From Apostichopus japonicus (Eukaryota > Echinodermata > Holothuroidea > Aspidochirotida > Stichopodidae), in contig NC_092577.1 of NCBI RefSeq assembly GCF_037975245.1, positions 15,762,013 to 15,826,012 on the forward strand: DNA of 64,000 nt. Reading direction: 5' to 3'. This document shows, piece after piece, positions 11,690 through 42,076 of this stretch. Under the pieces are notes generated by a model, which searched no databases, was not told where the DNA came from, and saw only the letters and a program-made list of their open reading frames with translations. Position 1 is the stretch's first letter. Each line of letters starts with the position of its first letter. A program made the position numbers and the translations under genes.

Positions 11690-12110
11690 TAGGAGAGACC
11701 CTGGGATGTTGATTACGGAAATACTTGTTGATCTCCACAATTTGGCAGATCACTCGCTGTGTTGTTACATCCTGGCGTAGCAGATTTAGCCAGTGGGACG
11801 AACACCCATGTACTGTTTAGTCCGGGTTGGCGTCTTTCAGGCTTTTGCGCATTGCTTTCATTTTGTTCTCTTTGTCTGTAACAACTGATGTTACCGTGCA
11901 GCCAAACTTGTGGAATGCATCTGTGATTGATTCCTTAGCGATAGACTCAAGAGTAGGCTGCGGACTTCTGGTTGGTACCAGCCTCCACTGCTGAGAGAAA
12001 ATATGACTTCTCCCTCACATGTAGACTGCTGGCGATCACATAAGTATTATGGATGTCACTCCAATCAGGAGGGTGGCTTCCTGTCCTTGGGTCTCCCACC
12101 TTTGTTCTGA
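11690..12110 (-). pseudogene. hAT (DUF659) transposase fragment inside piggyBac relic
   Basis: On the - strand the translation gives DWSDIHNTYVIASSLHVREK, then TVTSVVTDKENKMKAMRKSL, a stop, and VHGCSSHWLNLLRQDV with KYFRNQH. These are the ordered blocks of DUF659/hAT transposases and match the relic at 4.93-5.96 kb. It sits between the piggyBac C-terminus and the LINE at 12127 and reads in the same direction as piggyBac, so one element inserted in the other or they recombined. No TSD was identified. Confidence 0.75.
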
Positions 12111-17097: not shown

Positions 17098-17103
17098 GCC
17101 TAC

Positions 17104-17645
17104 TACGGAATGCCATATGTTTCAAAAATGTCCAAAACTATATAAGAATGTCCAAAATAATATAAGCATGTCCAAAAATATATAAGCATGTCCAAATTTA
17201 TATAAACATGTCGAAACTAATATGAGTATGTCCAAAAATAATATGAGCAAGCCCAAAATAATATGAGAGTGTCGAAAAATTATATGAACATGTCGAATGT
17301 AACTGCTTACTTCAACTTTATATTGAACATTTTGGCATTTGAATTCACGCCATATGTTGCAAAATATCCAAAACAATATAAGCATGTCCAAAATAATATA
17401 AGCATGTCCAAATTTATATAAACATGTCGAAAACAATATGAGGATGTCCAAAAATAATAAGAGCATGTCCAAAATAATATAAGAGTGTCGAGAGATTATA
17501 TGAGCATGTCCAAAATATTAAAAAAGTGTCGAAAAATAATACAAAAGTCTCGAGCGTAAATGCTAGATTCAATTTTGAAATGAACAGTCTGGCGTTTGAA
17601 TTTACGCCATATGTTCCAAATATCAAACTTTTTATTTCGGTATGC
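17104..17645 (+). repeat. Left terminal inverted repeat
   Basis: The repeat consists of 20-21 bp units of the form CATGTCCAAAATAATATAAG, with variants CATGTCGAAA and GTGTCGAAAAAT, in at least two sub-blocks. The sub-blocks open with GCCATATGTTTCAAAAATGT (17113) and GCCATATGTTGCAAAATAT (about 17348). A third GCCATATGTTCCAAATATC word closes the repeat near 17608. Its inverse complement is at 38110-38621. It runs open in places, but that coding potential is only a product of the period. Confidence 0.88.
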
Positions 17646-18196
17646 TGAAACAAATACACCATATCCAGCGTAACGTAAGACGATGTACAGTTCATCCATT
17701 ACCGTATAAGTGTGTGTATTTATTTTTTAATGATATTTCGATCGAGAACGATTTTATTTTCGAGGAAATATTAGTTGAGTTGTTTCGTAGCGCGAGTGGT
17801 CAACCGGGCCCCAAGGTGCTGTAACTATCAGTGAGTTTACTACGAACCACTGTGTTTAACACTCCACGCGGTTTAATCACTTATCTGTAGTCGGCGAGTT
17901 CTTTCCACGAGTTTCCATCTTGATATTTAGTTAAAAGGTGAGAGTGAAGATTAAACGTTGAATACCCCTAACCTAGGCTTACTTTTTAATCCTGGGCTAG
18001 TGTTCTACTTCGTTCATGTAGGCTAACCCATAGGCCATAATTCGTCATTTCGTCACCACTGTCAGTAGCCTGGTAGGCCTAACTATAGGCTACTGTATAT
18101 AACTCCTTGGCTTATCATTTATATCCAACTTTGGGTAAAGACAGTAGTACTAGGCCTACTACTACTACGTACTAGGCATATTAGTGGTTCTGATTT

Positions 18197-18320
18197 AGAA
18201 TCCGTACCATTCGACCCTACTTCCTAACCCCTATACCCTACCTCCTAACCCTACTCCCTAACCCTATTCCTTACTTCCTAACCCCTACTCCCTAGCCCTA
18301 CTTCCTAACCCCTGACCTTA
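18197..18320. repeat. CCTAACCC-rich degenerate minisatellite
   Basis: Units of about 15 bp, such as CCCTACTTCCTAACC, repeat roughly eight times. They are rich in CCTAACCC words that resemble degenerate telomere repeats (CCCTAA). It lies in the 5' flank of the HECT gene inside the giant element. Confidence 0.7.
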
Positions 18321-19011
18321 GTTATGCTGCCGATTCGAAGAAAGCTTTCCCATTCATATGGTATGGATTCTAAAGTTAGGCCCTATTAGTAATATAACCT
18401 GTGGCTTAGTGTTAATGTTATTATGCAAGTATCCAAATATCATTTTATCCCTATTTCAGTGCGTCGATCGCCTAATTTCTTGCACCCCAATCTTTGCCCT
18501 GTTTGCACCTAGGCAGAAAGGCCTATAGGCCCTATACAGGCTATAGTACTTCAACCATGGAAGTATTACCCTGAGTCCTGACAGGTGATACTTCCATGCT
18601 ATAACTACATTGGGCCGCACTGTTTTCCTTGCAAAATTATGACTCCAGATTGAAATATGTTTTTAGAAACGCTTCAAAATTATCCACTTTTTTACACCAC
18701 TTATCATGCTGGGCCTAATTGCTTCATTCTTTGTTCAGAGAGGACCAGCATAGGGCTAGAAAATAAAGTTTTTTACTGATTACTTTGGTCTGCACTTGTA
18801 CCCAAGAAAAAGCTAACGTATTTTCAACGTTTTTTAACCTCATTTCTATCACTATGACAGTATGAGTATGACTACTGTACTCAAAATGTTTTTCACCATT
18901 TCCAAGGTTCTTTACGAAGTTAGCCACAAAGTAATTTAAAAAAAGTTTCAACAGTTAATACCAATTAGGCTAACAGCCATATATGTGCATACATTTGAAC
19001 CATAGGAAAGA

Positions 19012-22000
19012 ATGGAGGAAGAAGATTTTAGATCCCTTGTTGAGGCTTTGACACCAAGGGTAGTGGATGCCGGTAGACAGCGTCTACAAGCATCAACCAC
19101 ATCAACACCAACCACATCAACATCTCAACCACCATTGACCAGCCAGAGGCAGTTTCCACTGACTCAGCCATCAACAAGTGGATGGAAGCCCAGGTAAGAA
19201 GGTGTAAAACATGTAAAAGTTTGAGGCTGCATTGTGCTGTTATCATTTGGAACTTAACTATGTACTGTTATATATATTTCATATATTGATCTTTTAAGCA
19301 ATTATAATTCTGCAATTTATGTACAACATTAAATGAATGCTGTCTTTTAGTTGTAGTGTACTACATAAAAAATGTTAACTTCTTTTAGTTAATTTTTTGT
19401 GCTGGATTCAAATCTGCATGTGTCCTAATGTGAGGCTCATCTATAGTATGGTATGGCTCATCTACTGTACGAAGAAATATAAAGAGCGAATTACATGTTT
19501 GAGGTAAAGTGTGTATATTTTAAAGGGAATAGTAGAACATTCATATCAGTCTCGCATCTTATGCTAAATATTTCAAGTTTGTACTTTGATGGACATATTC
19601 AGTGTAATATCAATGTCAAAAACTGATACAGTAAGATCAACTTAATAAAAATAGCTTTGTTTATGGCAACATTATCTTGGATATACATATGTATAAATTA
19701 ATCATTTATAATTACTGTACCATGCAGAACACAACATTAGCCAACATCAAAGCTTGTAATAATTACACTTCTCAAATAACAAAACAATATGTAACTTCAA
19801 ATCAATGTTATGTAGGTGTACCCCAAAAGAAGAACTGAGGAGGGCTTTTAGGAGGAGGCAACATGTTCCCTATAAGAAGAAAGAGCTGGGATCAAAATGC
19901 ATTGATGTCATCCTGCTTCCTGATCATGAATGGTTGGTTTGCGGTATCATTTCTTTATTAGAGGAACTGGGAACATCTCTGATGATTAAGGGGGCAATAT
20001 GGGACTAGTTTCATAAGGAATTTGAGAATGTGCTGAAAGTGTTTATATATAAGTCTTCATAAGCATTAGAAAATGCATCGTTAATATTGGTGAATGTGTA
20101 CGTCATGCTGCACAGAATGGGGTTTTGAGGAATGCTGTGAGACTGTTATTTAATATATTTCCAAAATGTTCAACAGCATATTAATAGTACTCAGTCTTGT
20201 TCATAATTAATGTTTAGTGATCATATTCAATGAATAACTTGACATAATAATTTCATTAAAGAAGGGGCCTTTCAATGAAAAAGAAACTTTTACATACTGT
20301 ACATCACAACATGTTACAGTATACATTGTTTTGTGTTGAAATACTGCTTGGTGATAAAAGTTTTTCAAATTGATAGAATTCTTGACATCAAAGCCTTGTA
20401 GGTCAGTCAAGTGTTTTTATAGCAATGCTTGAAAATATTGTTTAATTCAACTACTGTACATAGTTAAGCTGTACAGTCATTAATAGTAACCACAGGCTCC
20501 ATAGCCAAAGCATTCATTTCTTCATACATAACATGTTACTATTAAGCTGGAAAATTTAACCAAATTAAAGTTCTTGGTATTTTATGTTAATAATGCATGC
20601 ATACACCAGGAATATATGCTTTTAGCATCCTTTTCCACAATGTTCAAACTTAGCTTCTTAGAACCATTCATTATGTGAGTGCATTGGTGTGAGCTCTTTT
20701 GACTGTCCAAAAGCAAAAACTGAACCATCTGAGGTACAACATCTTCAATGTAAATGACATGTACACCTTTAAGTTTTGTGGGCTTATGACTTGGTTAACC
20801 AATGAATCATTGTGTAATGTTTAGCACTGCAAATGGTTCAATTTTGAATTAAGAAGATCCTTGTTGAATAGTTTCAGCGATATGATGTACAGTAATGAAC
20901 ATGTGGAATTGACAATTGATTGCAATGATCACAATATCAGGATGCATAATACAGCCAACACTGTATGCACAATAATGTACTACACTGATGATTGTCATTA
21001 TATTTCTCTGATGCAGGTCTAAAGTGGTACGAGGAAAGGAGAGGGCACAATTTCATCAAGAAGGGTTGTTGGTAGATACGTTTAGGTTCGAGAAAAGCTG
21101 GTCAGAGGGCCAGGTGTTTGATGCACTCTTCAATGCATTCAGAAATCAACTGACCACAGCGTCTGGTGAAAGTGTAACGTAAGATTAAATTTCTTTTATT
21201 ATCCAATGTAGTGGGTGAATCTAGGGATTGATAATGGCTGTATGCATGCTATTATATTAAAAGTTTGTAAGCCTAACAAAACAACATGTGCTTTTGCACT
21301 GGTATAGTGCATTTGCGTGACAAGTAAATGAACCATGTAGTAAAATCATTTTCATAGCTGCCATGTATTTGAGGTCAAGATAGGCAACTTAAAACAGTAT
21401 TTCAGGTCTCACTTCAGATTGGTATTTATAAGTTGCACTTCGAGGGTACACGACCCCAATTGTGGCTTATATTTCATATAACTGTGCATACAATCTATAT
21501 TCGTTAAAAAAAATGCAGGTACAGGAGAGTGCAGAAATAGTCAATATTTACCCCATTAGGTAGTTCAGGTCAATATTTTACAACAAGCCTGTACATGATC
21601 TACACATGCAGTAACTTTGCATGTCCATACATGGAGTCATATGATAATACCAGTACCACTCAGGTTAGCTAACAGATTCTAGGTACTGTGATAAATTATG
21701 TCAGAAATGTAGTGCAGGCTTTTTGTCTAACTAGAAAAATCTGCTGTCTTTTATTTATATGAACATTACAGAGTCTTGCTTCCCTGCAACTTTTATGTTA
21801 GCCTACCATGAAGGTGATTTTTACACATTCAATGGATGGTTCACAGTGATGCTGTTACAGAGATTTTGAAGGATTGAATTATTTTGGAAATAAATAAAAT
21901 TAAAGAAATGATACATAAAAGCCAAACTGTTTGTAAGTAATATTCCTCTGTTTTTTTTTTAAAATCTCATGAAAGGGCAACATGATAGTAAGAGTAGTGT

Positions 22001-25000
22001 GTTGCCTGCATGAAGACTGATGTGAAGGTTTATGGAGGATAATGTTTATGTTTTGTTGAAGTATATTGTTGTAAATGAAATGCTGTAAGTAGGCTGTATT
22101 AAATAAGAGTATTTCAAATCACTTCAAGGAAGTGCTCATGAAGTTGTCTTTAATTTTGCCTTTCAGATTTTGCCTTAAGAAACCAGAGGGAGTTGTCTTA
22201 CTACAACCCAGAATTGCCCCAACAGAAACACTCAGTGGAGAGAAAATTTGCGAAATTTTTTCACAGAAGACAGTATATTTGTGCCCGGATCGGGATCTGC
22301 AAGTATTTAAAAAGGTACTATGAGTAAACTACAGTAGCATGTGGCTATATGCTACAAAGAGGACAACAGGGTGACTTTAGTTCATTGATCTCAACTCACT
22401 TCGTAATTCCCTTGGTTGATTTTTTTTTTAGATACTTTGTGTAAGCAGACAAGTGTTGATGTGTTCTAGTACGATTGAATACATGAATATGTGCTTGGAA
22501 CCACATTACACATTACTTCAATAAAGATCACTTCAAGAATTCTTATTTCATGAATTTAATTTCCAATCAGAATGTAAAAAAAGCTTATTATATTTTTTGG
22601 GAGTTTAATGTCATGTAAGGCTCACTGTGCTGAAACTTGGTATCATGTTGTAAGGTTATAACAGGTATGTGTTGATGTATGTTAAAGTTTGTATAAATTT
22701 GCATATTAATGAGGGGTTGTGGCTTCATCTAATTTTGCAACATTTAGTGTAGGTATAAGAGAATGCCTGTTACTCATTATAGTCACTATGTAGATGGATT
22801 TTAGTGAGTAGAATGACCCTATTGTTTTTGGTGGTTATATTACGGGTATTAATGAGGTAATAGGGTCAAAACTTCATGCATAAGTCTAATTTTTAAAGAA
22901 CCTCAAGTCTGCCAATCAACAATTTCAGCAAGGAATCATTCAATGCACTGCATCTATGTGAATAATTTTCTCTCTTTCTTCCATACTAAGGAAATCATCT
23001 CAAGTGATGAAGATGACAAATTGGTAAGCCTTCTCATTTATGGTGTCCATATAATGATTCCATGTTCTTCAGGTACACTTAGCAGATTGTTTGTGTGGAG
23101 GTGATGTTATCACTTTATTTCATAGGCCTTCTGAAATGTTTTCAGCCATTATCACCATTCTGTCACTCAGTGTTTTAGCTGTCTGATTGCTGTTTGGATT
23201 ATGGGTGAAAAAAATTAAATAATTTAACTCACGTCATCCATTTTTATGGGAGCTATATACTGACAGAACAGATTTAAATACTTCAGGACTTTGGTTTGAA
23301 AGAAAGTAAAATACTGCATGACTATGGTTATAGAATGGAACCGCAACCAGCAGTCTGTATTTACATTTACAGGAAGATGACAGAGCTGATGAAACACCCC
23401 TCTTTGGTGAGAGTTCCAAATCAACATACAGTGAGAGTAGTAGTAGTAGAAGTAAGTAAATAATTTAACTATTCCTGGTTATTGCAACAGACATTGGTTG
23501 GCATGTTTTTATTACATTACATGTGTAGCTTCACAATCAGTACAAAATATAACTAAATCGCAGGAGAACGGAAGTATTCTCAGAAACATTGGAAAAAAAC
23601 AAGGTTTAACTAGTAGAACACTCGCGACAAATTACATACATTACTTTTTTAAGTAAATATGAGCAAAAATTGAAAGCTAGCTGTGTAACCATAACAATGC
23701 ATTTCCCCTGGTACCATATGTTCTAATTTTGCGAACTTCAAATGCTTTACTAAGGTCCATAAAAATACAGTACAATCTTAGCAACTTTTAACTGACTAGG
23801 AAAGACTCCACTCTTAAAAGAAATATTGAAAATATCAGTAACAGGTTTTGCTATGTATGGAAGGACATCCCTTAATTATATCATGTTTAATGTCATCATA
23901 TCCTGCAGATTTATTTGGCTTAAATTAAGGGAAGCTAGATCGTGCAACTTCTATGAATTTGTCTTCAGTAATGGGTGATATAAACATAGAAGAATCATTA
24001 AGATTTACATTATATAGGAAGTCAGCAGCTTTACTAGTTGTATGGATTTTGCTAGAAAGACAGGTCTGTATTGACAAAGAACTAATTGAAGTAATTATTC
24101 ACAATTTCGCTGATGTTGTTCGATTCGTTATTACCATCATGAAGTGAAGGGGGTACGATGTTGCTTTATCTTTACGATGGAGAAGGTTATTAATAGCACT
24201 TCATGTTTCATTTGGATTGTTTTAACAATCTATTATAGAATTAAATCTTCTTAGACCTGCCTATAATAAAGGTGTGCTCCTTTCGATTTTGTGTAGTTCT
24301 AAGTTGCATGAGGAGTCTTTTAGGTATTTATGGTAAAGCTTATTCTTTTATTTAATCGTTGGCAACATACTACTGGTAATCCATGGGTGTCTGTTTTTTC
24401 TTCAGTCTGCTTAGTTTTCCTAGGTTTGACTTTTTATTGATTCCTTGCCGAAGGCCGAAGGAATCTATGCAGTATGGTGATTGTGTGCGCGTGTGTAATG
24501 CCTTAGCTTGTAAACATGATATCTCAAAAAGTAAAAGTTGGTTGAACTTCAAACTTGGTAAGTGGGTAGCCCTTAGAAAGAAGACGATCCCTATTTTTTC
24601 CAAGGAGGTCAAAGGTCATTTGAGGTCAACAGAGGTATCAAAGTCTGAAAACCTTGTAAACACGATCTCTCAAGAAGTAAAAGTTGGTTGAACTTCAAAC
24701 TTTGTAAGTGGGTATCCCTTAGTGCCTTAAGTACTGTTTTAGCCTTTCCAAAACCCAGAAACAGCAGTGTGTCTAGGATTTGACAGTATTACATGTGAGA
24801 AATGATCGTAAGCATTGGATGCTTGAGTTTCATGTTGGTTTTGCCACAATGCAACACAATGGTAAAAAGCAACACATGCAAACTGGGATATTCAGAACAG
24901 TTTATTTAATGTTTAGGAAACAGCAATGTCCTTTCATAATGTACATTATTTAACATATTTTTGGTAGTTATTTATCATTTGGAACTATTTCATACTTAGT

Positions 25001-28000
25001 TTTGTTCCTTATTCACAGAGCAACCTTCTGCCACATTTGTTTGTGAAAGATGCACATACATAAATCCATCCTCTGTCACAGAATGTCAGATGTGTTCTGG
25101 TGAGTAATTATACAAGGGGGCTCTTATTTAAAAGCGCCACAATCACTAGCAAGGAGTGGTTTGTGTGAGGTCATGAATCATAACGTAATTTTACATTTGA
25201 AGGTGTTGAATTCTTGTTTTTGCTACGGTTGGTTAATGTTTTGATTTTGCAATTTCTATTTTATCGTTAGAAAGAAACAATAGCTAAAATTACTTCTGTT
25301 CTCCATATGTGTTTTTTTTTTCATTTTTAATGATGCTGGGTATGCAACACACACTATTAAGTTGTGATGACTTACAATGGAAGGATTAAACAAATGTCGT
25401 AAAAATGCAAAAATTGCTCTGATTTGTGGGCTTTCAATGAAGGAATTTTAAGAAGAATGGTAGGAAACTTTGCTAGTGATCTTTGTCATATTGCATTGAT
25501 ACATTTTATGTATACTTTTCCTTACGTATGCAATCTGATATAAATTAGGAATAGATTGCACAGTAATAATTTGTCAATCTGACTTCTTACTTTACAGAAG
25601 ATCCTCTGGTAGAGCAAAGCTCCCCAACAAACATGCAGATGCCAGTAATGCCACCTCTTCTGCAGGCACCATCCAAGCCAAAGGATGGTTCAAGAATGAT
25701 AAAAGACATTTTAGGCTTTGACAATAATCCTAGTCTAACACTTTATGTTGATAGGGATACTCTATTGGATGACAATATTGCCTTCTTTAAAAAGAAGTTT
25801 AAAATTGAAAATCCCATCAAAGTCAAGTTTCATGGAGAGATGGCTGTTGATGCAGGTGGACCTTTACGGGAAAATTTTCGTCTACTGGTGAGAAGATTGT
25901 ATTCGTCAGACCTGAACCTTTTCTTTGGTACGCAGAGTCACAACCTTCTACCAAGTAACAACCAGATGTTGCTATATTCGGGGATGTTTGAGGTGCTTGG
26001 GAAAATAATTGCTGCAGCTTTTGTTCATGGGATACCCATGAACCTCCCTCTCCATCCTGCTGTGATAGGCTGTCTCTTGGATAGGCCAAAAGAAGAGATA
26101 TTTGGTCACCTTCAGCTCAATGACATTCTTGACCTTGAGCTTCAAGACATGCTGAGACAGGTAGGTATATACATATAAACTTTAATATAGAACAGAAAAT
26201 GTTATTAAATCTGTTAAGTATGGATTTCATCTTACCCTGCTAGATATTATTTAATGGAAATAAACATGTGAATTTGAATGAGACAACTTTGTACTTTCAA
26301 GAATAGCAATTGCATTACATCCAGAAGCCAATAACTCAATATGTGCAGATAAGATGCTGTTGTCATCTACTGTATTATGAAAGAAACTATTCAGTTCATG
26401 AGTATCTGTTGTGATAAAGTGGAAATTTGCCCTTTTGGCACTCATAGTTAGTTCACTTCCTTGCTGCTTGCCGGCCTTGGCATAGCTCTGCTTTCAGGAA
26501 GTTGGTAGGCAACACAGCAGGGGGTCACCATGCTTCATTGTGACATGCATGTTGAGATCTGTTCTGCCTCTCTACTTTAGGAACTAACATAATCCTGCAT
26601 TGGATTACTAGTTTTGCATCTGTTTGGCAGCTGTTTATTGTCAGCTTGTATTTGGGTAGTGCTCTACTTAGTAAAGTAGCAACTACATCCATAGGGTTTC
26701 TGGGTGAAATATGGTGTGTTAGAGTTTAAGGTGTATTACAGAGATGGTGATGGGGCTGTTTGCAGCCATGTGGCTTGCAACTTCTCCCTCACTCTTCTGC
26801 AAACCTCCCTCCAGTGTGTCTTCTGTGGCAACGTAGAAGCTGGGCTGAGAAGCTGGTTATTTCCGTGTAATTGGTTACTAAACCTGGGTTAGAGTGTTCA
26901 ACTTCCAGATGTCAGAAAGTTGCTGATTGGTTCCTTGGGCTGAGACTGTTTGGTACAGAACTGTTGGCACAGAACAGTCCGGTACTGCAAAAACAGAGGA
27001 CTAAATGGAGGTCTGGTGTTTATTAGTATTTATTTATTAAGGAACTCATGTCACATGGGTTTGCTACTTTTCAGCATTTCAGATAATACTACTAAAAGAA
27101 TTGAAGTAACGTAAATTGTGGTTAACTTCATCGTTCTCTTTTTATTTCAGATTTTAGAGTGTGACCAGGATGACGACTTGCTAACACTGGTAACAAAAGA
27201 GGGGGGTGCTACCCATTGGCTAGACAGCTGTGGTTGGCCGGCCTCCAAAAAGATGACAGTGAGTGTGTTTGGTCTATTTATAAACTTGGCTTATGAACTT
27301 TATGGGGGAGTTTTGGTGTTTTAATTTGGGGGTCAAACCTTTTTAGGGAAATTCCAAGGGTTAGTTTAAATGTCTTAAGGGTCGAGGAAAGGTCTTTCAC
27401 TAAAGGGACCAAGATCATGACACTATCTAAACAGAGTGCCACCATCAGTTGGCCAGTAGTGTACCAAGAAAAATTTGGCCAAACATACCTGGCATTTTCT
27501 GGACCTAATTGATGCATCTTTGACATATTCTTCTTTTTTGGTTTACACCAATGGTGATGTCAGGATTTGCTCGCCTAGGGGACCAGGCTTGCCAAAAGAG
27601 AGGCCCTCCCCACCAAAAAAATAAGATAGCAAGGTCTATTTCAGTGCAGTATCATCAGGGGTGATTCTCAAAATACGATATGACAATTCATAATTGACTT
27701 AGAGTTATGGAGATGTCTGAAATGTGTGAACAGTACCTGTTTCTGGATAATTTAGGAAAAATCTGTTGCATTTGGTAATTATTAACATCAATCTCTGTTC
27801 ACTTTGATACACAAGACATCTCTGTCCCTTCTCATTCCGCCTTCTATATCATGTTCAAATTTCCTAATGGCTGGTTAGTACAAATTATACGAGTGTATAA
27901 CAAGACTGATCAAACTGATATATATATATATCTAATCAAATGAACTGGATGTATACTGCAAAGCATATTTATTCTTCTAACATTTAAAAAAAAACTGACT

Positions 28001-29370
28001 GATCGATGCATACAAAGTCACATAATGTTGATTTCATTACATAACATTCATACCCAAATAAGTAAGCATGAAGTAGTAAATTATATGCACATGTTACATC
28101 GACTAACAGACATGTTTCTTTGTTCAACAGGTGACATGTAAGCATGATCTCGTTCTTTGTGTGATGCACCATTACATTATTGGAATAAGGAGTGCTGCAA
28201 TATCCTCTATCCAGAAGGGGATGAAGTGTGAGGATAAGTTCCCACTGGCACTCCTCAGTGCATCAGAGTTTAGCAAGCTTCTCACACCACAGCAGATCAC
28301 TGCTGCTTAACTAAAGAAATTGGTGGAACCATCTATTGAAAAGATGGCTAATGATCAGTCTGCTTCTTCCACATTTGTAAAGAGACTGATCAATGAAATT
28401 GGTAAGCGGTTAACTTAAAAGATCTAGTTAATTTGGTAGTACATTTTAGATACTGATGATGTAACTATGTGTTCAATATGAATAAAACAACGTAGGTTTC
28501 AGTTCACATAAGTTTCTATATATGCATGGTCAAAGGTCGTTTGAGGTCAGCAAAGCTCAATACATGAAACCACAGCAGGGATGAGAGATACACATAAACC
28601 TTTCATCAGTGTCATGCTCATCTAATTCAACACAGAGATCTCTGTCCCACAAAGTTTTCATTTTGTCTATATTTTAAATGGTACAAGTACTTTGTTATAA
28701 ACATAAAATTGCTCATAACTCTAAAATGGAGGGGTATACAGAAAAGGTCAGTCTTACAATTTGCAGGATTATGAGTGTTGTGCATAAAGTAAGTGGACTG
28801 TTGAACAAAACAAAACTGTGGGAGAATCTTAAATGTTTAATGATTTATCATGCTGTTACAATATTTCCCCTTGGTGTCTTCACTTCTCCTGTTAGAACTA
28901 TAACAGTACACAGAATTCTATTCTAACTGGTACAAACAATGGCAAATTTTATGCTTCACTAGGTTCTCTGCTGTTTAAATTTTGACTGTTAACCTGCCAC
29001 TACCACTTATCCTGTGTTGTACTAAGTGATCTGCATGAACCAGTGTGAGACCCTAAACAGAATATCTTGAGTAGTCAAGTTATTTTTAGTAGCAGTAGAT
29101 TTCATCTTTGATATGTTTCTTTCACTTTATACAGATGATGACAATGCTAACAGACTGGCTGTTTTTGCTACAGGATCAGACTGCTTGTATCATGACCTTG
29201 CAGAGATCCAGCTAGAGTTGAATACATACAACCAGCAAGAAACCTCCCCAATTGGCAATACTTGTATGGCCAAAGTGTTATTCCCTGTGTCTTTCACAGA
29301 ATTTGATAAATTCAAGAGTCACATGTTCAAAATGATGGCAGAAGCAGTAGATTTCTTTGGTATGCTATGA
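19012..29370 (+). CDS. HECT-type E3 ubiquitin ligase with RanBP2-type zinc finger (at least 11 exons)
   Basis: E3 ligases of this class take ubiquitin on a C-terminal Cys and pass it to substrates. Exons with matching GT-AG phases are 19012-19193 (MEEEDFRSLVEALTPRVV start), 21017-21178, 22167-22314, 22991-23023, 23373-23451, 25019-25099, 25598-26160, 27151-27258, 28131-28401 and 29135-29370. A further exon from 19816 (RRRQHVPYKKKELGSK) fits the first exon, but its donor is unclear, so a small exon before 21017 is probably missed. Exon 25019-25099 encodes a CERC-X10-CQMC finger (RanBP2/NZF type, often ubiquitin-binding). HECT starts in 25598-26160 with VKFHGEMAVDAGGPLRENF. The catalytic Cys lies in NTCMAKVLFP (codon 29263-29265), and the protein ends DFFGML. 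TAA at 28308-28310 interrupts the C-lobe in frame. It resembles the expanded G2E3-like HECT genes of fish and invertebrates (from memory). Which substrate it acts on is unknown. Confidence 0.85.
23560..24375 (-). pseudogene. Non-LTR reverse transcriptase relic in HECT intron
   Basis: On the - strand, shifted frames give short LINE-like blocks: PITEDKFIEVARSSLP, then a NKSAGYDDI-like GxDxI segment, and TDIFNISFKSGVFPSQLKVA leading to AKIV. These match the region just before the polymerase domain of jockey/CR1/RTE-like LINEs. Many stops interrupt it. The relic lies wholly within the intron between 23451 and 25019, so it inserted after the host element had this gene. Confidence 0.65.
24431..24720 (+). 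repeat. Hairpin-ended AGGTCA repeat, partial copy
   Basis: The copy starts at the hairpin 24439-24465 (stem GATTCCTT/AAGGAATC). It continues through a TG-rich stretch and two tandem units containing TTGTAAACA(T/C)GAT and CAAAGGTCATTTGAGGTCA. The order matches 45.7 kb. It is in an intron of the HECT gene. Confidence 0.7.
25019..25099 (+). other. RanBP2/NZF zinc-finger exon of the HECT gene
   Basis: The exon is preceded by a pyrimidine-rich acceptor (TTATTCACAG) and followed by donor GTGAGT. It reads FVCERCTYINPSSVTECQMC, with spacing C-X2-C-X10-C-X2-C. Such fingers bind ubiquitin or RanGTPase-type partners in other proteins. Here it sits about 30 codons before the HECT N-lobe, suggesting ubiquitin or substrate recognition (inference). 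Confidence 0.85.
28308..28310 (+). other. In-frame TAA in the HECT gene
   Basis: Exon 28131-28401 is in frame with both neighbours by splice phase, yet reads QQITAA, TAA, LKKLVEPSIEKM. The sequence after the stop still looks coding, and the exon after it keeps the catalytic Cys. This is a recent nonsense change, a sequencing error, or evidence that this copy is inactive. A protein ending here would lack the catalytic Cys. Confidence 0.8.
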
Positions 29371-29689
29371 ATAAAGACATCATTTGTTCCAAACTTGGTT
29401 GTTCTGATGTATCATGTATATCATGTACCAAAATATTGCCAAAAATGCTTGAACATCCAGTGCCATAATTAGTATAAAGACTTTGGTATAGTTATTTGGT
29501 GCAAGTATAATTGCAACTTTAAAAAAAAAAAAACTTTGAAATGACGAACCTAAATGCCCATGTAGATTGACACCTTTATTCTGAGTGTATGTCTATGGCG
29601 ATCACTTGATTTTGCCTTTGAGAGTGTACATGGTTCAGAATGTAACATGCATAGAGGTAGCTACACCATCATAATGGGTATTACTCATA

Positions 29690-29900
29690 GTTTGTTTTGC
29701 CCTTCTGCAAGTTCTTTCTTTCTTGTTTTTATGATCATAATGCATTCTTGCTGTGTATGTGCATATGTGTCCCCTTATAACTTGTAAACATGATATCTCA
29801 TGAACAGAAGCTAGAAGATATCTCATATTTGGTTGTTCCACATTTATTACAAGAAGTGTGTGATTTTGAAAGTCACCAGGAGTCTCCTTATGAAAACTCA
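29690..29900 (+). repeat. Hairpin-ended repeat, diverged copy
   Basis: A perfect 12-bp palindrome, TTATGATCATAA (29729-29740), precedes TGTGTATGTGCATATGTG, CTTGTAAACATGATATCTCA and a CATATTTGG block. This is the same order as the copies at 24.4 and 45.7 kb. It starts about 0.3 kb after the HECT stop codon. Confidence 0.6.
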
Positions 29901-32100
29901 GTAAATGCTCTATCTTATCTCCAGAAAATCAGTTTATGTTTGGTATGAAGTAAAGATGCACCACATTGAGCACAGGAAGGCTTATGTAGTTGTTGGTAAA
30001 GGCCAGCTGTCATTGGAGTCCGATTCTTAAAATAATTATAGATAATTGGAACTTCAATTCACCTAAGTTGCATTTTCTAGTTAAATGTTACTGTGTGTTG
30101 TGAATATTGTTTGATTTTTTATCCCAGGAATGGCACCAACTCATTATTGTCATGTTTTGGGTTTTCTTTTTTAATATTTATTTAAATAATTTGAAGCATA
30201 TTTTTGTGCCTCTGCATTAAGATCTTGCCACTATGTCAGTGAAACATTTGTTTGTGGCAATAGTAAATATACAATTTAGACTGCACTTAGCTGTACATGC
30301 CAAAGTTTCTCTTTCTGCTGGGCTAATTTGTGTTTATACATGCCATTGTAGCATTGTAACCACAGAAGCATTGTAACCACAGACTAAATTCACCACCAGC
30401 TTCTTGAATTGATGGCATGCTTGTGGTATATGTATGTGGCATAGTCAGCACATGATCACTTTAGCCAGCCTATTATGATGTCATGCACATTATCGACTAA
30501 GTTTCATCACCAAATGCAGAAGTGAAAGGGAGTGTTTCGACCTCTTATCAAAATAGATTTGTGAGTTCAAAACATAGGTCAAAAATGCTTTCTTAGAGCA
30601 TAGTGATTACAAATAGGTATTTAGTCCTTTATATGATTTATAGCATTAGTATGAGTATAGGCACAAACAGAATAATTCTCTCCAACCAAACATTGGCCTG
30701 TACCAACAGTGTGAATAATGGTCCCATTCAACCCATTATGAGGTGCTATAGGTGACTGCTCTCATAATTTTTTTTTTTAAGTAAGCATTGTTTCTCAAAT
30801 ATTACAATGTACATCAAATATAGCGTTTGGGAGATTGTGTGGTTCATGGTCACATTCATCTGCTTTTGAGGTTTGTTTTGTCAAGTTTGTTTTAATTACT
30901 ATTAGTTGTTGTGATTCTTTGTATACATTTTTTAAGTTCTGCAAGTTAATGCTATTTAGCCTTTCAAAGTTTTTTTTTGGACTTGTACAGTCAACCCATA
31001 GAAATAGAGGTAGGGAGAATGATGACAGCAAGATACTGAAGGTGGGATAGTTTAATGATGTTGGGGGCTGTTGGGCAACAAGTTCCCCTTGGAAGCTGTG
31101 AAACCCAAAACCAACTAGAAGTAAACAACTCGTTGAAAATTTGTTATATTTCCCATCACTAACTAGTACAAGCATGCTAGTCAGCAATATTCAGATTTAT
31201 AGGTAACATTTTTTAGTACATGCTCATCATGGTACTGCAGCCACAAATTTAAAGCTGCAGTACAATTTAAATAGCTAACAGTTCAAAGATGTAATATAAC
31301 TTTTGCTTAATGTAATTTATGCTACATACATCTTTTGCCCAACAGTGCATTACATCATCAAATATATTTTGCATATTTGTTCAATGAGTAATTAGCCTGA
31401 TGTCATCCCCCCGTTTACTTTTGTATGATTTGATCAACCACATGTGAGCTTGTAGATAAAACCTCAATTTGGTGTATCATTTAGATGTCATTGTATTTCA
31501 TGTACTTTTCAGCCTTAGGTAGTACTTGTACAAGTATATAGTATAATATCGTTGTAATTAGTAATAAAACCTCATGAAATTACATCTGAATATTTTCTAA
31601 TTTTTTTTTGTAACACTTGTTGCTATTAACAGTCAGGGCAGTTTTCATGCAACATCAGTTAACCTCTATGACTTGCATATTGAAAAACATGAACTGTATG
31701 TTTTTTTTTTTCATTTTCCTTAATGTCAAGCTGTTTTCCTGCTCTGACAGACATGAATGAAAATTATTGCAGCATGCCGTTATTGTGTTAACATACAAAA
31801 GTACATTAGGCAGCTGTTGTCATGTTTTTAAATTCCGATATATATATTCCTTTGATTTGAGAGCTGACATGTTATTGTTTTCATTTATTTATTTTTGTTC
31901 TATCACAACATAAGTATGACATATGACATAGGAGATAAGAAACAAAACTTGTGAAAGGAAGTGTACTAAAAAACCCTATAGAGCTTGTCGGGTAGTGACA
32001 CTCCCTAAAAAAATACAGAACTTTACAAATAGTAAGAAAAGAACCAAACAAACAGACCCATCCCTTCCCTCCCCCCATTTTCATTTCGCATTTCTAGTAC
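29901..32100. other. Intergenic sequence between the convergent genes
   Basis: AT-rich sequence between the HECT gene 3' end and the transposase 3' end inside the giant element. No exon or recognisable motif was seen apart from the flanking repeats. Confidence 0.35.
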
Positions 32101-32109
32101 ATGTTGATG

Positions 32110-32390
32110 AAGTGCTTTTGTAAAGCTTTTTCTAAAAGCAACTCAAGAAGGCTTGGCCTTTAAAGTGATAGGTAGGGGATTCCAAAGTGCGATGGCCCAA
32201 TGATGTAACCTATTTTTAGAGAAATTGTTGTGACATTGTCTTGGGTGCAGGTAATCAGCTTGCCTAGTATTGTGAGCGTGGATGTTTGAGTTTTGTGTAA
32301 AGAAGGCATTCAGAGTATCTGGTAGCATTCGTGTAATGAACGAAGGAACTAAGGAAATTGAGACTGAACAGATCAATAAGCTTCAGTGAA
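32110..32390 (-). pseudogene. LINE reverse transcriptase C-terminal relic
   Basis: The - strand reads LVPSFITRMLPDTLNAFFTQ, HAHNTRQADYLHP and LHHWAIALWNPLPITLK. This is the typical tail of jockey/CR1/RTE-like reverse transcriptase ORFs (H..nTR......R.......a...WN.LP). Only this end is left. It lies just beyond the transposase 3' end, inside the giant element. Confidence 0.8.
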
Positions 32391-32794
32391 TTCAAAGACT
32401 TATGATTACCATTATCAAACTACCAACAATCGGCTGTCTCTAGCCGATTCTAAAGTAATTTCACCATATTGTATCATACTAACCGTCGCATTTCATTAGA
32501 TATCTGTAAGTGTTGGATGTGATTTCAATAACCATTTCAATCTTTTGATTGAATTACAATGAATTACATGCAGGTGATTGATACTAGGTCCGACAAGATC
32601 TACATATGATCTACTCCCTTTGTCACACTAATAACTAGAATGAAGACTTTTCACAGTTCCTTGCCTATGTTCATCTATTATATCAACATGGAACACTTTT
32701 AAAAAAGCCTAAAGATATGAAAATTGAAGCAAATTTCTGCACATAAACATTCCTTACTAAAATTATGCTATGATTATTGCATAATTAAAGTTTG

Positions 32795-35700
32795 TTACTG
32801 CATGACTGAAAGACCATGCACTGCCATTCGAACAGCTATGTACCGTCCTGTGTGGTCTTCTTGCGGTAAATGACTTACTACACCAGTCACATAGGCCACT
32901 TGTTCCTCTGACAAGCTCAACTGGTTCAGTGGAACATGTACTTCGTTGTCACTAGATCCATTACTGTGAGGATCCAGTATGTTTGTATTCTGTGCTGGCA
33001 GTACATCTTCGGCAAGAATGCCCCTTACGCTTACAGCATCACTGTCAAAACGTCTGAGTGTGCCAGAATGCCAGTTGAAGAGGGGATCGATTATGTTCTG
33101 TTCTCAGTGGGTGATTGTTGTACTGCAGAACAAATTCTCTGAGAGACTCATTTATTACCTGAAGGTACACAAAATGAAGACTGAACATGTCATCCTCATC
33201 CAGTGGGTCCAGCAATCCATTTTCTTCAAGTGAGAAGAAAGAATCCCGAAAAACAGAATTAACCCTTTGGTTTACTTCACACCACAGTCTCTCGATTCTT
33301 TGATTGTGTACACTTAATCCAGTTATGATACTCCTACGGTTTGGGCCTCTTGTCTCGATCATGAACTGAGCAACGTCTCTGTTCTCCACACCCATGTCAG
33401 TGCGCACTCTGGAAGGAATTCCATATATTTGAGTGGCCTCTTGAAATAATCTTAGTACAGTGGCAGAACGGTTGTCAGTGGCACAACGAAGGTAAGTGAT
33501 GAGCCTACTGTATCCATCAACACATCCATGGATCACAAACCTCCATCTGATGAGCTTGTGATTTCCGTGTAGATGCCTACCAATTGAAAAGAATTATTAA
33601 AAAATGTTATTACTTTACAATAGTTCAGTGTGTGTTTGTGAGTGACACCTTGGATTTTAATCATATCTCAACCTGAAATCTAAAGTACATTGCACATGAT
33701 GAACAGATCTCCAGAAATTCAGAAAAGTTTGAGGAACTTCAAATGAGGTATACATTGCAACTGAATGAACTGATGATTGAGCAGATGATCCACATTGTTG
33801 ATGAAGGCAGTCAAACTTCCAACGGTGAAAACATTAACCATGCATTGTATCCAAAATAAATGTTAATTCTCATGTGCTGGCAAGTACTCATTCTATAGCC
33901 TATTTGGTTGGAATTTAAGAAGGACTTTGTACAAACTACAGTACTTACCTGTCCTCTTGTCTTACAAAGTTATGCCATATGGATAGATACTTTACATGCA
34001 TGTTTCATTTCTGCAACGGATTCAAAGTTACTTGCCAAAAATATAGCAAAACTTAAAAGCATGATCATGGGGTGGCTTTAGTGCAGCCCAGAAATTTTAT
34101 CTGCATCCTCATGGCCTTTGAACATCTTTTTTGTCAAGTTGTTTTACATGTATGCAAATTTCCCCTTTTCATCCCACAAACGAAATTGTTCAAAAAGAGT
34201 TATTGTGGAATTCTAAATCTTCGAGAAAAACAAGTCAAGCACCAACAGCTGAGAGCTCTCATACTCATACTGACTCTATATGACATTTGACCTAAACTTC
34301 CTCAACACCCCTGATGCCCCTTTACTTGGTGATCATTTTGACAAGGTTTCATTTCATCCAACAAAGACTGGGCATTGAGTAGAAATTTTCCTAATTGTTG
34401 ACATGCGGATTCTGCGCAACCTTATAACTAATGCATTTGCATAGGTTCTATCACAACTAGTACCCTGAAACATGGCAAATCTGATCACATACCATAGTTC
34501 ATTCGGACCAGCCACAGAGTATGTCCTTCTTACAATTGTCCGTGATCTCCGGAGAGTTCTGCCAATTGGATCGACTCGTCTGATAGCCTGTCGTAGCCTG
34601 CTTCTCTGAATTTGAATACCTCGACCTCTAAGTGCACCTATGAGTACTACTTCACCTGTTTGGCAGAAATGATTATGTGCCAACGTTGAAAGGGCAGACC
34701 TTAAATGGAATCATGACTAGAATCTTTAGCAACATTATTTTCTATCACTACAGTAGATACAACTTGGTGTTCATCTATTATTCGGTATCAATGCTTGATG
34801 ATACACTAAAATTGATGACATGTCTACAGTTTAAACTGTACTTTTCATATGTGACAGGCCATAGTTTTGGTGGGTACACAACCCATGTGTCGATAAACCA
34901 AATATTTGGTGCTCCTCTTATGCATAGTAATGGGTATTGCTTTGTGGTCATTCTTTGTGAAATTAACCCATTAACAATTTACCAAAACCAAGTAGATATT
35001 GCCAGTTTTTATATAACTTATAACGCATAATGACTATGAGATAGGAAGAACTTTGACCTCAACATCCTGAACACCCCTGAGGCCTCCACCAAAAGGTTGC
35101 AAGCTGGAGAAGAATTTTAATTGGGAAACCATTCCATTCATTAGGCAAAAGAAAATGAACAGAAGTGACACAATCATTGCTGACTTAGAATTCCTGAATA
35201 GCCCATACTTGCCATTGGTCAATGATTACTTTCACCCCCACTAAACTGTGGGAAAAGAGTTCTTTGTGTTTTCACAAAATGGCCAAAAATGACTCCTCGA
35301 TGACCTTTGACCTCAACTTCCTCACTACCCAGATGCCCCCTTATGCACTTGTCAATTGAATGACTCACCCCACTAACCCTGGACATGGTCAGTCATTGAC
35401 GAAATGAGTCAACAAATGCGTACATTGACGCACCCCTCAGTCACTTTTACGACTGACATCTCATGTAAAATGACGCACCCATCAGCCACAATATTGTCAC
35501 AAGTTCACAAAATTTTATGTTTTATATTGTTCATCTCAGCTAAAATGACCCATCCCAGAGTCACTCTTGTGCACAATTTTGATAAAGTGACGCACATGTG
35601 AGTCACTTTTTTCAGTGTCAATGACCCACATTTGACTGTGTCAGGTTTGAGGGGTGAGTCATTCAATTGACAAGTGCATTACTTGATGATCATGGAATGC

Positions 35701-37621
35701 AAATGGGCGTACAGTACTGTATATCATAAACAGCTAACAAATTCACAAACAACATCAGTACAACACATATTATTATCAATGGTACCTGAATGTGGAGATA
35801 CTCTCAGTATCTCTCTCAGTAGCTGGTCTAGCTCATCATCTGAAATACTGCTGTGGTTGCTACCAGCAACAGTTGACATCCCAAACTGTCTTCTCCTGTA
35901 AAGTGTTGTACGGGATATTCCAAGAACTCTTGCAATTCCGCTCCAATCTCTATGGATGCTGCGTTGGCTTTCAATATGATCATGTGTTACATCATACCTA
36001 TATGTACAGATTTAAAAAGCCCATGATTAATGTTACAAATACCAGCTGAGTATGCTAGCAAAGTAGCAATAATAACCACGATTCTGTCTAGGCCTACTAA
36101 CAAACATATCAGCCAATGCCTTCAGTACGGCGTATTCTCAATCACACGTACATCTTCTGTGCCAGCTACTTATTATAGTAGCAACAATACTGCAGGCCAT
36201 GTAACATGCTTTCATTTTAGAATAATTACATATTTCAGGACAATATGAATCAATGTCATGTAAGTGTTGGTTAAATTGTGGTTCTTTTAGAAGCTAAATG
36301 CACCTTCACCAATTGTTGCAAGTATTTTTCACACTTGCAAGTTCACACATGTTTGTATTACATTCCAACCGAGGACCCCATTGTATTTTCCATTGTTCAA
36401 AACTTCAAATCCACGTACCCTAACCTTAACATTACCCCATACAATAGAATTCTTCCGAGGACGTGGTGCAAGCTGATTCTTTAGAAATCACAACCGAGGA
36501 CCTGGAATTCTTTTGTTCAAGTCCTCGCGAGTTCCTGCTTGCAGGAGGATCTAATATACATACATACATACTTGGAAATGGTACTTCCAAAACCTAGCTA
36601 TAGTAGGCTCAACATGATGCAGCTAAGTTCACCGTAATAATGATCCACCTGCCATATAACTATAGACTTTAACTATAAACTAAATTTAATTACAATGCAT
36701 CATTAAAGGTAATATATGCCTATGAAGGAAATTGATACAGCAGACTAATTCTAAGTTCTTGGGGCAAAACTTTGCTTAAGTTGCTGTTGTTTGTTTTTTG
36801 AGGGTAGGGGGCACAGCCCTGCCCAGAAGTGCCCTTAATGTACCATGGCAAATAATTTGGGGTAGATGGTTTAGTCTGAAAATGATCCCACATATACGGC
36901 ATGTGTACACCTCCCCCCCCCCCCCCACTGTACTGTAGCACCGCAAGTGTCCAACACATGCATTATAAATGCTATTCCTTCGAATCCTTGTCCAAGTGAG
37001 TGTGATGCTGGCAGTACTCAATAACGTAGAGCCTAGTTCTGAATACATCAATGATCAAGCCTAGCTTAGTACTGTTACTTATTTGTTGTGTAAACTTCGT
37101 CTAGTTTGAGAAGACAGCACATTACCAGTGAAAATTACGTGCAGCCATAGCAACAGTGTATTGGTTAAGTTCAGAGTGGGGAACGTGGCGAGGTAATTGG
37201 ACTATTTATGGTGCAGTGGCAGTGCTTTTTCTCCTTCTGTTTTTACATCCATGGTTCAGCTAAATTGGTATAACTTACCGTAGGCCAGTACTTACCTAGG
37301 TCTTCCCCTTCCTACTCCTAAACGCACTGTAGGGCACCGGAAATTATTTTCTGCTTCATCTGCACGGTTATGTTGGGCGGACAATAGATCGAGGCGCCTG
37401 CGACAGTCTAGAATTCTGTTCAAAACCCGAGAAACATCGGGCGAAATCTGATCGTCGATATCGATTGATAAAATGTAACGCAGAATGGTGACACTTTCCT
37501 CAATCCGTAAAACCAGTCGCTGCACAAGTCCAACGGCAGACTCATTCCAATCGCGGATAACCCTCTCAACTTCGTCAACTAAATTAGGTAGAGCGGCAAA
37601 TCTTTCGCCCAAAAACTCCAT
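32795..37621 (-). CDS. Integrase-type (DDE) transposase, four exons, inactivated
   Basis: Exons on - are 37621-37296 (ATG, MEFLGERFAALPNLVDEVER), 35997-35786, 34655-34493 and 33576-32795. All three junctions are GT-AG and in phase. Exon 1 is helical and ends GVGRGRPR. Exon 2 gives WSGIARVLGISRTTLYRRR, a helix-turn-helix expected to bind DNA. Exon 3 gives a basic RGRGIQIQRSRLRQAIRRVD segment. The last exon is an integrase core: PNELW-HLHGNHKLIRWRF, HGCVDGYSRLITYL, RVRTDMGVEN (second Asp) and HNQRIERLW (Glu). The family normally has HIDGNHKL; here the first predicted catalytic Asp is His (codon 33567-33569). A one-base frameshift near 33046 separates LAFWH from the tail DSDAVSVRGILAED, which ends in GLSVMQ and TAA. 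Length is about 490 codons. It is the likely mobiliser of the 17104-38621 element. Family knowledge is from memory. Confidence 0.85.
35344..35678. mobile_element. 335-bp MITE, PIF/Harbinger-like
   Basis: Perfect inverted ends of about 28 bp start TGCACTTGTCAATTGAATG. The direct repeat TTA lies outside both ends (35341-35343 and 35679-35681), which fits PIF/Harbinger target preference. The interior repeats GACGCACCC(A/C)TCAG and GAGTCACTTTT-type words. It is in the intron between transposase exons 2 and 3, so it arrived after the giant element formed. Confidence 0.82.
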
Positions 37622-38109
37622 CTTATTAGGTTATCTACAGTACTTAAGTATACTTTCAACTATTTAGGGACATGAATTAAAAAGACAAAACTAGAAGACT
37701 AATATGCTTTTTTAACAAGCCTGGGAACCGTAATTAAGTGTGACAATTGTCCGTTAAAAAAGTTACACAGTATAGTACTTCATTTTCACTGTCAATGTAC
37801 GCATGTCTGATAACTACTGTACTCGTTAGAAAGTTGTTAGCGCAGGTGCATCTTGTACGTACTTTCGCGCGTGAACTTCTTTGCCTTCGCGTCAATATAC
37901 GAATAATTTCAGCACCTCTAGGCAGGGCGAAACCACTCACATTACGAAGGGATGTAAAAAGGAAAAATGTTAGGTGATGGTCTTGTTTTTACATATTTTG
38001 AATTATTTGCGTCACAAAAACAGAAGAATGTTCCAATAATATATTGTCACAATGATAACCATTGTGTCAGTTGATACAGATTACCTCTAAAGAAGGTATT
38101 GTAAGCTGA

Positions 38110-38621
38110 TTTTTTTTCGACATACCACTATAAATGTTCGATATTTGAAACAGATGGCGTGACTTCAAACTATTATTATTATCTATTATTATTCGACACT
38201 CTCATCTTATTTTGGGCGTGCTCAAATTATATTTGGACATACTTATATGTGTTTGGACATGCGCGTATTATTTTGGACATGCTCATATAAGTTTCGACAT
38301 GTCTATATAAGTTTGGACATGCTTATATTTTTTGGGATATTTTGCAACATATGGCGCAACTTAAAACGCCAAAATGTTCACTACAAAATTAAATTAGGCA
38401 GTTACATTTGACCCTCTTGTATTATTTTTCGACACTCTTTTAATATTTTGGACATGCTCATATAGTCTTTCGACACTCTCATATTATTTTGGACATGCTC
38501 TTATTATTTTTGAACATACTCATATTAGTTTCGACATGTTTATATAAATTTGGACATGCTTATATTATTTTGGACATGCTTATATTGTTTTGGACATTTT
38601 TGAAACGTATGGCATGCCGTA
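38110..38621 (-). repeat. Right terminal inverted repeat
   Basis: Its inverse complement begins TACGGCATGCCATACGTTTC and aligns closely with the left repeat; over the first 120 bp only a few substitutions and one 21-bp unit of length difference are seen. The internal GCCATATGTTGCAAAATAT block is also kept. Confidence 0.88.
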
Positions 38622-38627
38622 GCCTAC

Positions 38628-40190: not shown

Positions 40191-40192
40191 GT

Positions 40193-40560
40193 GACGGACA
40201 TTTACTAGTGTGCGTTAGTGCTGACCGACGGAGTCGTGTCTAGAATCTAATTCCTAAGCAAACGTGAATGGAATTTGTACCATTTTTCTGTCAAATATTT
40301 TCAGTATATTATCTAACTTATTCACGGTAACATTTCAGCCCCCCTGTTTTTGACGGACATTTACTAGTGCGCGTAAGCACTGACAGACGGAATCGTGTCT
40401 AACATCAGATTCTAAACCAATCTCGAATCGAATTTGTACAATTTTTCTGTCAAATATTTTCAGTATATTATGTAACTTATTAACGATAACATTTCGGCCA
40501 TTCCTGTATTTACCGAAATTTGTGACAGACATTTCATGATCGTGCGTGATATTTGACAGA
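40193..40560 (+). repeat. Tandem repeat, about 158-bp unit, 2.3 copies
   Basis: Two nearly full units start TGACGGACATTTACTAGTG (40193 and 40351) and share TTTTTCTGTCAAATATTTTC and AGTATATTAT. A third partial unit begins at 40523. It contains many GACAGAC/GTCTGTC words and lies just upstream of the full-length LINE insertion site. Confidence 0.75.
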
Positions 40561-41022: not shown

Positions 41023-42076
41023 ATGGCGGCTCGCCGTGACAGCAACATCGTATTGTTGAGTTTTTCGGGGGAGGCTAAGGTCGTCTCCGGACAATTTTTT
41101 TTCAGTTTTGCGTTCTGTTGGTTTAAAGGTCCCTGGAGATGTTGACGCGCTTCAGCGTAAACCTCTCCGGGATATGAATTGTTTTGATGTGCGGTTTACC
41201 TCGGAGGCTGCCCGCGTCCGAGGCGTCCATGTGTTGGAGGGAGTCGAGGGACTGAAGGTCACACCGTATGACAGTTCGGTGTGGGTGACAGTCCTCTATC
41301 TCCCTCTGGACATGTCTGAACAGATTGTTGTGCGGACACTGGGGCGTTTTGGGAAAGTAACCGGCTACGAGGAGCCGGAATTCCTTGAATGTAAGGGTGT
41401 AAAGACCGGGACCAGACGAGTTAGATTACAACTCAAGTCCGATATCCCCTCTACCTTGTGGGCTAATGGGCACAGGGCCCACGTTGCATACCCGGGCCAG
41501 CCTCGCACTTGTTGGAGGTGTGGGCTGGAAGGGCATGAGGCCAGGTTGTGCCCGAACAAGCGGTGTAGCCGCTCTTTACAGGTTGGGCATACCCTGGCCG
41601 AGTGTAAAGGGGATATCGTATGTAACTCGTGTGGGAAAACGGGCCATCTCGCTCGTTTATGCCCAGACCGCTCATACGCCGCGAGAGTGGCTACGGGCGT
41701 GGTTGAAGCGGTCCCCGTCCCGGCCTCTGACACCGTACCACCTGATGCTCCTGTCATCGCCCCAGTGTCCGACACTAGCGCCCCGGTGGAGGTTTTCAAC
41801 TCCCCTTCGTGTTCCACCTCGTCCCTGGAGGAAGTTGCCGCTCCGGCCGAGACTGCCAGCCTGCCCACTGAGGCGGAGCAGGACAAAACGGCGGAGATGG
41901 TATTAGCGGAGTGGCATGCGAAGCAGGATGCCGCTTGTACTGGTTCACCGGTAGCTACGCCCGCTATCGGTGACACTAGTCGGCCCTCGAGTCAACCGGC
42001 CCAAGAGACTTTTAAGTGGCCCACATTCGGACTCGCCAATGGAGGACTGTGCTTCCGCCTTAGTAGTTGTGGCTAA
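41023..42076 (+). pseudogene. LINE ORF1, RNA-binding protein with CCHC knuckles
   Basis: The likely start, ATG at 41023 (MAARRDSNIVLLSFSGEAK), is one base out of frame with the main reading, with the slip probably in the T run at 41094-41101. The protein then runs through an RRM-like part (MNCFDVRFTSEAARVRGVHV, WVTVLYLPLDM). It continues into two knuckles, CWRCGLEGHEARLC and CNSCGKTGHLARLC, with a further CSRSLQVGHTLAEC segment between. An Ala/Pro/Ser-rich acidic tail follows. Another slip near 42030 separates this from the DEELRGLLGRRKR end at about 42290. Such proteins coat LINE RNA. Confidence 0.85.

Follow-up and report, generated by a model that had tools for sequence, protein, structure and literature searches.

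The window analysed here is a stretch of 64,000 nucleotides of Apostichopus japonicus (C17:15762013-15826012, in a genome of 671.6 Mb and 35 contigs), and it holds an insertion of 21,518 bp at window positions 17104-38621 with inverted ends of the form TACGG...CCGTA. Within the insertion a gene for a HECT E3 ubiquitin ligase, on the plus strand, and a gene for a transposase with a Pfam rva_4 integrase core, on the minus strand, lie tail to tail. We consider it very probable that this is a decayed DNA transposon of an IS3EU-like kind that normally carries just such a tail-to-tail pair of rva_4 transposase and HECT ligase. Its features are listed below in window coordinates, with the evidence for each; percentages are identities to related elements.

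17098-17103, no strand: left target-site duplication, GCCTAC (flank sequence and empty sites)
17104-17620, plus: left terminal inverted repeat, starting TACGG and mostly an array of ~20-bp units (inverted arms; at least 45 genome matches)
21015-21164, plus: HECT-gene exon block, N-terminal part (40%, one relative only, at C17:15.41 Mb)
22153-22305, plus: HECT-gene exon block, N-terminal part (46-51%, three relatives)
25024-25101, plus: HECT-gene exon block with a RanBP/NZF-like zinc finger (35-40%, three relatives)
25663-26163, plus: HECT domain, N-lobe exon (PF00632, E 2.3e-6; 41-48%, four relatives)
27151-27267, plus: HECT domain exon (47-65%, four relatives)
28116-28400, plus: HECT domain exon, interrupted by an in-frame TAA (28308-28310) and with an approximate 3' limit (comparison with four relatives)
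29124-29367, plus: likely HECT C-lobe exon with an NTC cysteine at the catalytic place, a weaker call (alignment with 22 element C-lobes)
33048-33593, minus: transposase core exon, rva_4, with the second Asp and the Glu kept and the first Asp replaced by His (Pfam, alignment)
34357-34710, minus: transposase exon, TYSVAGPN region (C3 element, 57% over 42 aa, E 8e-8)
35727-36011, minus: likely transposase exon with a helix-turn-helix (HTH_8, E 1.6e-4, 21.7 bits against a cut-off of 22)
37295-37630, minus: tentative first transposase exon, open frame only (112-aa frame; best Pfam E 0.19)
38184-38621, minus: right terminal inverted repeat of ~20-bp units with the CCGTA end (inverted arms; at least 40 genome matches)
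38622-38627, no strand: right target-site duplication, GCCTAC (flank sequence)

The duplication of GCCTAC is perfect and lies immediately outside both ends. The element starts at 17104 with TACGGAATGCCATA... (in a longer reading, TACGGAATGCCATATGTTTC) and ends at 38621 with ...TATGGCATGCCGTA (in a longer reading, ...GAAACGTATGGCATGCCGTA), which is the near-inverse of the left end. Among the six longest inverted arms, five (I1-I4 and I6, 114-262 nt) are 80-92% complementary and the remaining one, I5, is 76% complementary; jointly the arms cover about 440-520 bp at each end of the element. Both ends are largely arrays of tandem units of about 20 bp, and the genome matches given above for each include the element itself. 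The left flank of the insertion is a dispersed repeat with 41 matches in the genome, its own included, and nine copies were fetched from the other 40, mostly the best-scoring. All nine are empty sites, with no element between the flanks: a single GCCTAC-like 6-mer joins the two sides, exact in six of the nine, and the right flank then follows for its first 17 bases, exact in seven and with one mismatch in two. The right flank matches these copies in BLAST over only those 17 bases, probably because the target repeat stops there. Since all nine fetched copies are uninterrupted, 17104-38621 is a single insertion into an older repeat, bounded by inverted ends and a 6-bp duplication. A preliminary description, made from the window alone, had taken the inverted ends and the GCCTAC repeat as marks of one mobile unit and had proposed looking for empty sites with a single such 6-mer; the empty sites, together with the ends, the duplication and the short copies described below, bear this out.

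The HECT match on the plus strand reaches 25.5 bits against a cut-off of 23.9 and falls in a single exon, near 25882-26127. Six exon blocks of the gene, spanning 21015-28304, are conserved across four relatives, the first of them in one relative only. The RanBP/NZF-like finger upstream of the HECT domain is conserved in three relatives, with all matches below the Pfam cut-off (in the window PF00641 at E 2.4e-4 and 20.8 bits, the cut-off being 27). Zinc fingers of the RanBP/NZF type can bind ubiquitin. The C-lobe at 29124-29367, aligned with 22 other element C-lobes of which the closest is 22% identical, is the likely seventh exon; scanned alone it gave no Pfam match, and the stretches fetched from the four relatives held no convincing counterpart. 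The gene of 11 exons in the preliminary description was not reproduced beyond these six conserved blocks and the likely seventh.

The integrase core of the transposase is a match to rva_4 (PF24764) at E 3.2e-72, and it also matches the NCBIfam IS481 model at E 3.1e-7 and 30.2 bits, far below that model's cut-off of 224. Its exon is 46% identical to the lineage of a whole element on contig C3 and 28% identical to that of another on C8. No N-terminal HHCC zinc finger was found among the Pfam matches to the scanned exons, in a gene model that is incomplete, and a helix-turn-helix is present instead; nor was there a match to OTU or Ulp1 in the minus-strand frames of 31001-38300 or in the core exon of either the C3 or the C8 element. 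Viral contigs scanned with the C3 transposase gave four pattern matches, none of them confirmed. A further rva_4 copy, with one TAA and without a paired HECT match, lies 3.3 kb past the right end of the window (C17:15829348-15829878).

Judged by its reading frames and active-site residues, the window copy is decayed, with neither gene intact, a point on which the preliminary description is corrected. The TAA codon at 28308-28310 interrupts the HECT domain in an exon that is open throughout in relatives C20 and D; relative B has a frame change there, and relative A, which reads past the site of the window TAA, has a separate stop some nine codons earlier. Relative C20 has a stop within the N-lobe, so that, with the defects of A and B, the four relatives are likewise decaying. 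Where the first catalytic Asp is expected, within the stretch that reads HIDGNHK in C3, the window transposase has His, codon CAC, and the second Asp and the Glu are retained, spaced by 34 residues; the triad is assigned throughout from what we take to be the integrase pattern.

The same ends also bound much shorter sequences. Twenty places were chosen out of 61 distinct ends listed, and 18 of them have both ends, spaced 1.5-2.1 kb; the other two, with no second end within the stretch, were left uncounted, and an additional 927-bp end pairing with five mismatches, within short-copy stretch L029, was dropped. The 6-bp duplications of the 18 are perfect in 15 and carry one mismatch in three. Too small for both genes, these copies are best read as non-autonomous derivatives. 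The preliminary description had held that inverted ends occurring without either gene between them would speak against a gene-carrying unit; formally such copies do occur, but they are derivative-like, and whole elements carry both genes.

Two pairs of such whole elements were found. The C3 element (18,357 bp) is about 99% identical to one on a different chromosome, C6; both genes are inside each, the homology ends at TATGG..CCATA, and the duplications GCCGTC (C3) and ATAGTA (C6) are both perfect. A third copy, on C12, was observed at its left end only. The C8 and C18 elements, again on different chromosomes with both genes inside, are about 97-99% identical across long pieces, with ends TACGATGG..CCATCGTA (TACGA..TCGTA) and perfect duplications AAATAA (C8) and TTAATG (C18). 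Whole elements have moved as units with both genes inside, and the earlier placement of the HECT gene within the mobile unit is upheld by both pairs. The HECT gene of C8 is a single open frame of 601 codons, and the C3 and C8 transposases have all three residues of the catalytic pattern. A repeat-rich region, with dense copies on C17, might suggest that there is no transposon at all, only neighbouring host genes between unrelated repeats or a segmental duplication; this is contradicted by the empty site, and exact 6-bp duplications flank whole elements whose homology stops at TA-type ends, which leaves that explanation vanishingly improbable. The left end of the C8 element (L012:2691-3063) consists of 17 near-perfect copies of a 22-bp unit resembling the ~20-bp arrays of the window; such arrays are possible transposase-binding arrays. 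The C16 and C1 elements (middle of L006 and L008), otherwise about 97% identical, contain a ~161-bp tandem array that differs in length.

The association of the two genes was then examined across the genome. Pfam family searches gave at least 143 matches to rva_4, where 150 of 225 candidates were scored, and at least 96 to HECT, where all 122 candidates were scored. Seven of ten supplementary matches were added, the remaining three overlapping existing ones, and merging per strand (within 6 kb for rva_4 and 15 kb for HECT) yielded 83 rva_4 and 63 HECT clusters. An rva_4 cluster lies within 30 kb of 39 of the 63 HECT clusters, tail to tail in 38 cases and head to head in one, at 24.7 kb. Random placement of the HECT clusters on their own contigs (2000 trials, with a guessed length for contig C10) produced 1.45 pairs on average and never more than six, and chance neighbourhood was set aside. 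The 24 unpaired HECT clusters include multi-exon ones, which we take for ordinary host HECT genes. Because the same pair recurs tail to tail in many relatives, the HECT ligase appears to be a regular component of the element rather than a chance passenger. The preliminary description had offered passenger or helper as alternatives: a one-off passenger is at odds with 38 tail-to-tail pairs among 39, and a helper role, taken up below, is conjectural. A concentration on C17 was also observed, with 35 of the 83 rva_4 clusters on this contig (37.2 of 671.6 Mb), mostly at 15-28 Mb, possibly a low-recombination or sex-linked zone.

A structure prediction was made for the HECT domain of the C8 copy, not the window copy; the domain was folded alone (pLDDT 86.6) because the model of the full 586-aa protein is poor (pLDDT 47.5). 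It has a complete bilobed HECT fold. In each of two comparisons with the PDB, which covered this domain model only, all 50 matches listed are HECT ligases, the best Z among them being that of UBR5 (Z 22.1, 4.4 Å, 320 residues), with HUWE1 at Z 21.1 and 5.3 Å over 320 residues. The fold is common to all three, whereas sequence identity to UBR5 and HUWE1 is 16-17% and the C8 HECT is encoded within a mobile element. When the search pattern is broadened from TC to [ST]C, each of the 23 element C-lobes has a cysteine in the catalytic position. All 12 sequences of a further alignment (A3) have it too. The ligase in other copies appears functional. In favour of selection on it, the HECT genes of C16 and C1 differ by six synonymous changes and one non-synonymous change; the C3/C6 (1 + 1) and C8/C18 (3 + 3) changes are too few for judging selection. 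Between families, in eight C-lobe comparisons, dN is 0.27-0.45 and dS is saturated or nearly so. The C8 (L012:4711-5460) and C7 (N-terminal part of L090:3045-5012) HECT proteins also have, by eye, an N-terminal region in common, with no Pfam match.

The age of the association was approached through distances and trees. HECT and transposase distances correlate over 23 C-lobe pairs (r 0.61, P 0.0002), a correlation that near-copies drive. Both C-lobe trees have few columns (101 and 98) and long branches, and omit C5b, C17_21.14 and C17_20.49, which are short or broken. In the first, 21 of 22 element C-lobes fall to one side of five host genes, with weak support (80/88), and the window C-lobe, on a very long branch, falls on the other side beside the host HECTs; in the second, which also omits the very long branches of the window and C17_24.89, the element side has support of 70/87. 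HECTs of the C8/C7/C19 lineage group with a nine-member part of the main lineage (83/82, or 91/76 without the two long ones). In our view a single old acquisition of HECT is likely. If HECT genes were instead host passengers, captured repeatedly and without a role in transposition, the position of the window C-lobe beside host HECTs and the lack of significant agreement between the two genes among 11 representatives (below) would be readily accommodated; the recurrence of one gene, oriented alike, in 38 of 39 paired clusters would not, nor would the grouping of the C8/C7/C19 HECTs with part of the main lineage or a between-family dN well below the saturated dS. We regard repeated capture as highly unlikely.

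Several results weigh against a HECT gene as a regular, long-held component of these elements. Only 39 of the 83 rva_4 clusters have a tail-to-tail HECT cluster within 30 kb, and 44 do not. Many rva_4 clusters are fragments, but some of those lacking HECT may be autonomous elements. Four neighbourhoods of intact-looking, seemingly HECT-less transposases were fetched (the near-copy C16:42952454 was among those left out), and two of the four have no HECT within 10 kb. The other two do have a tail-to-tail HECT gene, with open frames of 491 and 656 codons; both genes exceed the Pfam cut-off when scanned singly, so the genome-wide HECT search is incomplete. Among the 11 representatives the distances of the two genes are not significantly correlated (r 0.14, P 0.15), and in 12 of the 23 pairs the two genes have the same nearest neighbour; the C-lobe, of about 100 aa, is probably saturated. 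A single clade of the 22 element C-lobes is neither rejected (p-AU 0.315) nor proven. As to selection, dN/dS is 0.50, 0.73, 1.06 and 1.13 for four more near-copy C-lobe pairs and 1.31 for the C8/C18 transposase pair, with few changes behind each value; the C-lobe values are as would be expected of decaying copies.

We infer the following roles for the two proteins. The transposase would bind the ~20-bp arrays of the long ends, excise the element and insert it at a target site cleaved with a stagger of 6 bp. The HECT protein would be produced alongside it and would ubiquitinate a host protein, such as a repair, chromatin or silencing factor, and this modification would aid the movement or persistence of the element. 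We put forward tentatively, as a possibility a little short of even, that this IS3EU-like branch has kept its own HECT since before the transposase lineages split, and that the ligase serves as a second protein dedicated to transposition, acting on host repair or silencing proteins. The ligase might instead be a true part of the element that acts as a brake, marking the element's own transposase for destruction and so limiting the number of copies and the harm done to the host. The recurrent pairing and the complete fold of the HECT domain suit any function selected in the element, this one included, and nothing speaks specifically against it, the brake and the helper being indistinguishable by sequence alone; we think a brake rather unlikely.

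Among described systems, IS3EU elements have TA..TA ends, usually 6-bp duplications and a DDD/E transposase akin to IS3/IS481 (PMC10045372), and those of rust fungi have TAYGG..CCRTA ends and carry TET/JBP and alpha-kinase genes, the alpha-kinase opposite the transposase (PMC12730594). The elements described here share with IS3EU (and GingerRoot) the 6-bp duplication (window, short copies, C3, C6, C8 and C18), the TA..TA termini (TACGG..CCGTA, TATGG..CCATA in C3/C6 and TACGA..TCGTA in C8/C18) and an IS3/IS481-type DDD/E transposase, the match to the IS481 model being below its cut-off. They differ in the extra genes, which in the fungi are TET/JBP and alpha-kinase; the word HECT is absent from both papers. 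IS3EU, which the preliminary description had named as the first class to compare, is indeed the closest known system, matched by published traits rather than by Repbase sequences. The window element has the structure of an IS3EU-like transposon whose relatives commonly carry HECT as a second gene. The IS3EU-like element Styx of Zymoseptoria (PMC10853768) likewise has further genes besides its DDD/E transposase within a single element; these three genes have GATA, CCHC and DUF3577 domains, and the word HECT does not occur in the paper.

Ginger1, also an integrase-type DNA transposon, provides a further tie to the ubiquitin pathway: its transposases bear OTU or Ulp1 protease domains, for which a ubiquitin-pathway part in transposition was proposed in 2010 (PMC2836005). 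Those fused proteases strip ubiquitin or SUMO, whereas the window element has a separate ligase gene, and the Ginger1 duplication is 4 bp as against 6 bp in the window element and the short copies. Of two further papers, one on giant transposons reports ubiquitin-related domains in Burro retroelements without the word HECT (PMC6431247), and one on animal HECT gene evolution has, by word search, no occurrence of transpos- or integrase (PMC2837046). A literature search whose scope left out Repbase, preprints and most subscription journals found no paper combining IS3EU and HECT, and by title or opening of the abstract none of the matches listed reports a transposon of this kind with a HECT gene; an earlier notice of one is possible. 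A transposon family with its own ubiquitin ligase offers a natural test of a ubiquitin-pathway role in DNA transposition, and copies whose reading frames are open and whose ends are clear provide material for a transposition assay. HECT-carrying elements may also account for some HECT-like genes annotated as host genes.

An Rfam search of the window gave no match. Outside the element, two 159-bp copies, 82% alike, stand in tandem at 40192-40509. Retrotransposon pieces lie at 41060-43063, 47016-47861 and 51547-52473 and comprise a reverse transcriptase, a zinc knuckle and an endonuclease, together with a weak match to a reverse-transcriptase zinc-binding domain. The minus strand carries, at 11312-11749, a fragment of a DDE_Tnp_1_7 transposase, which we take to be of the piggyBac type.

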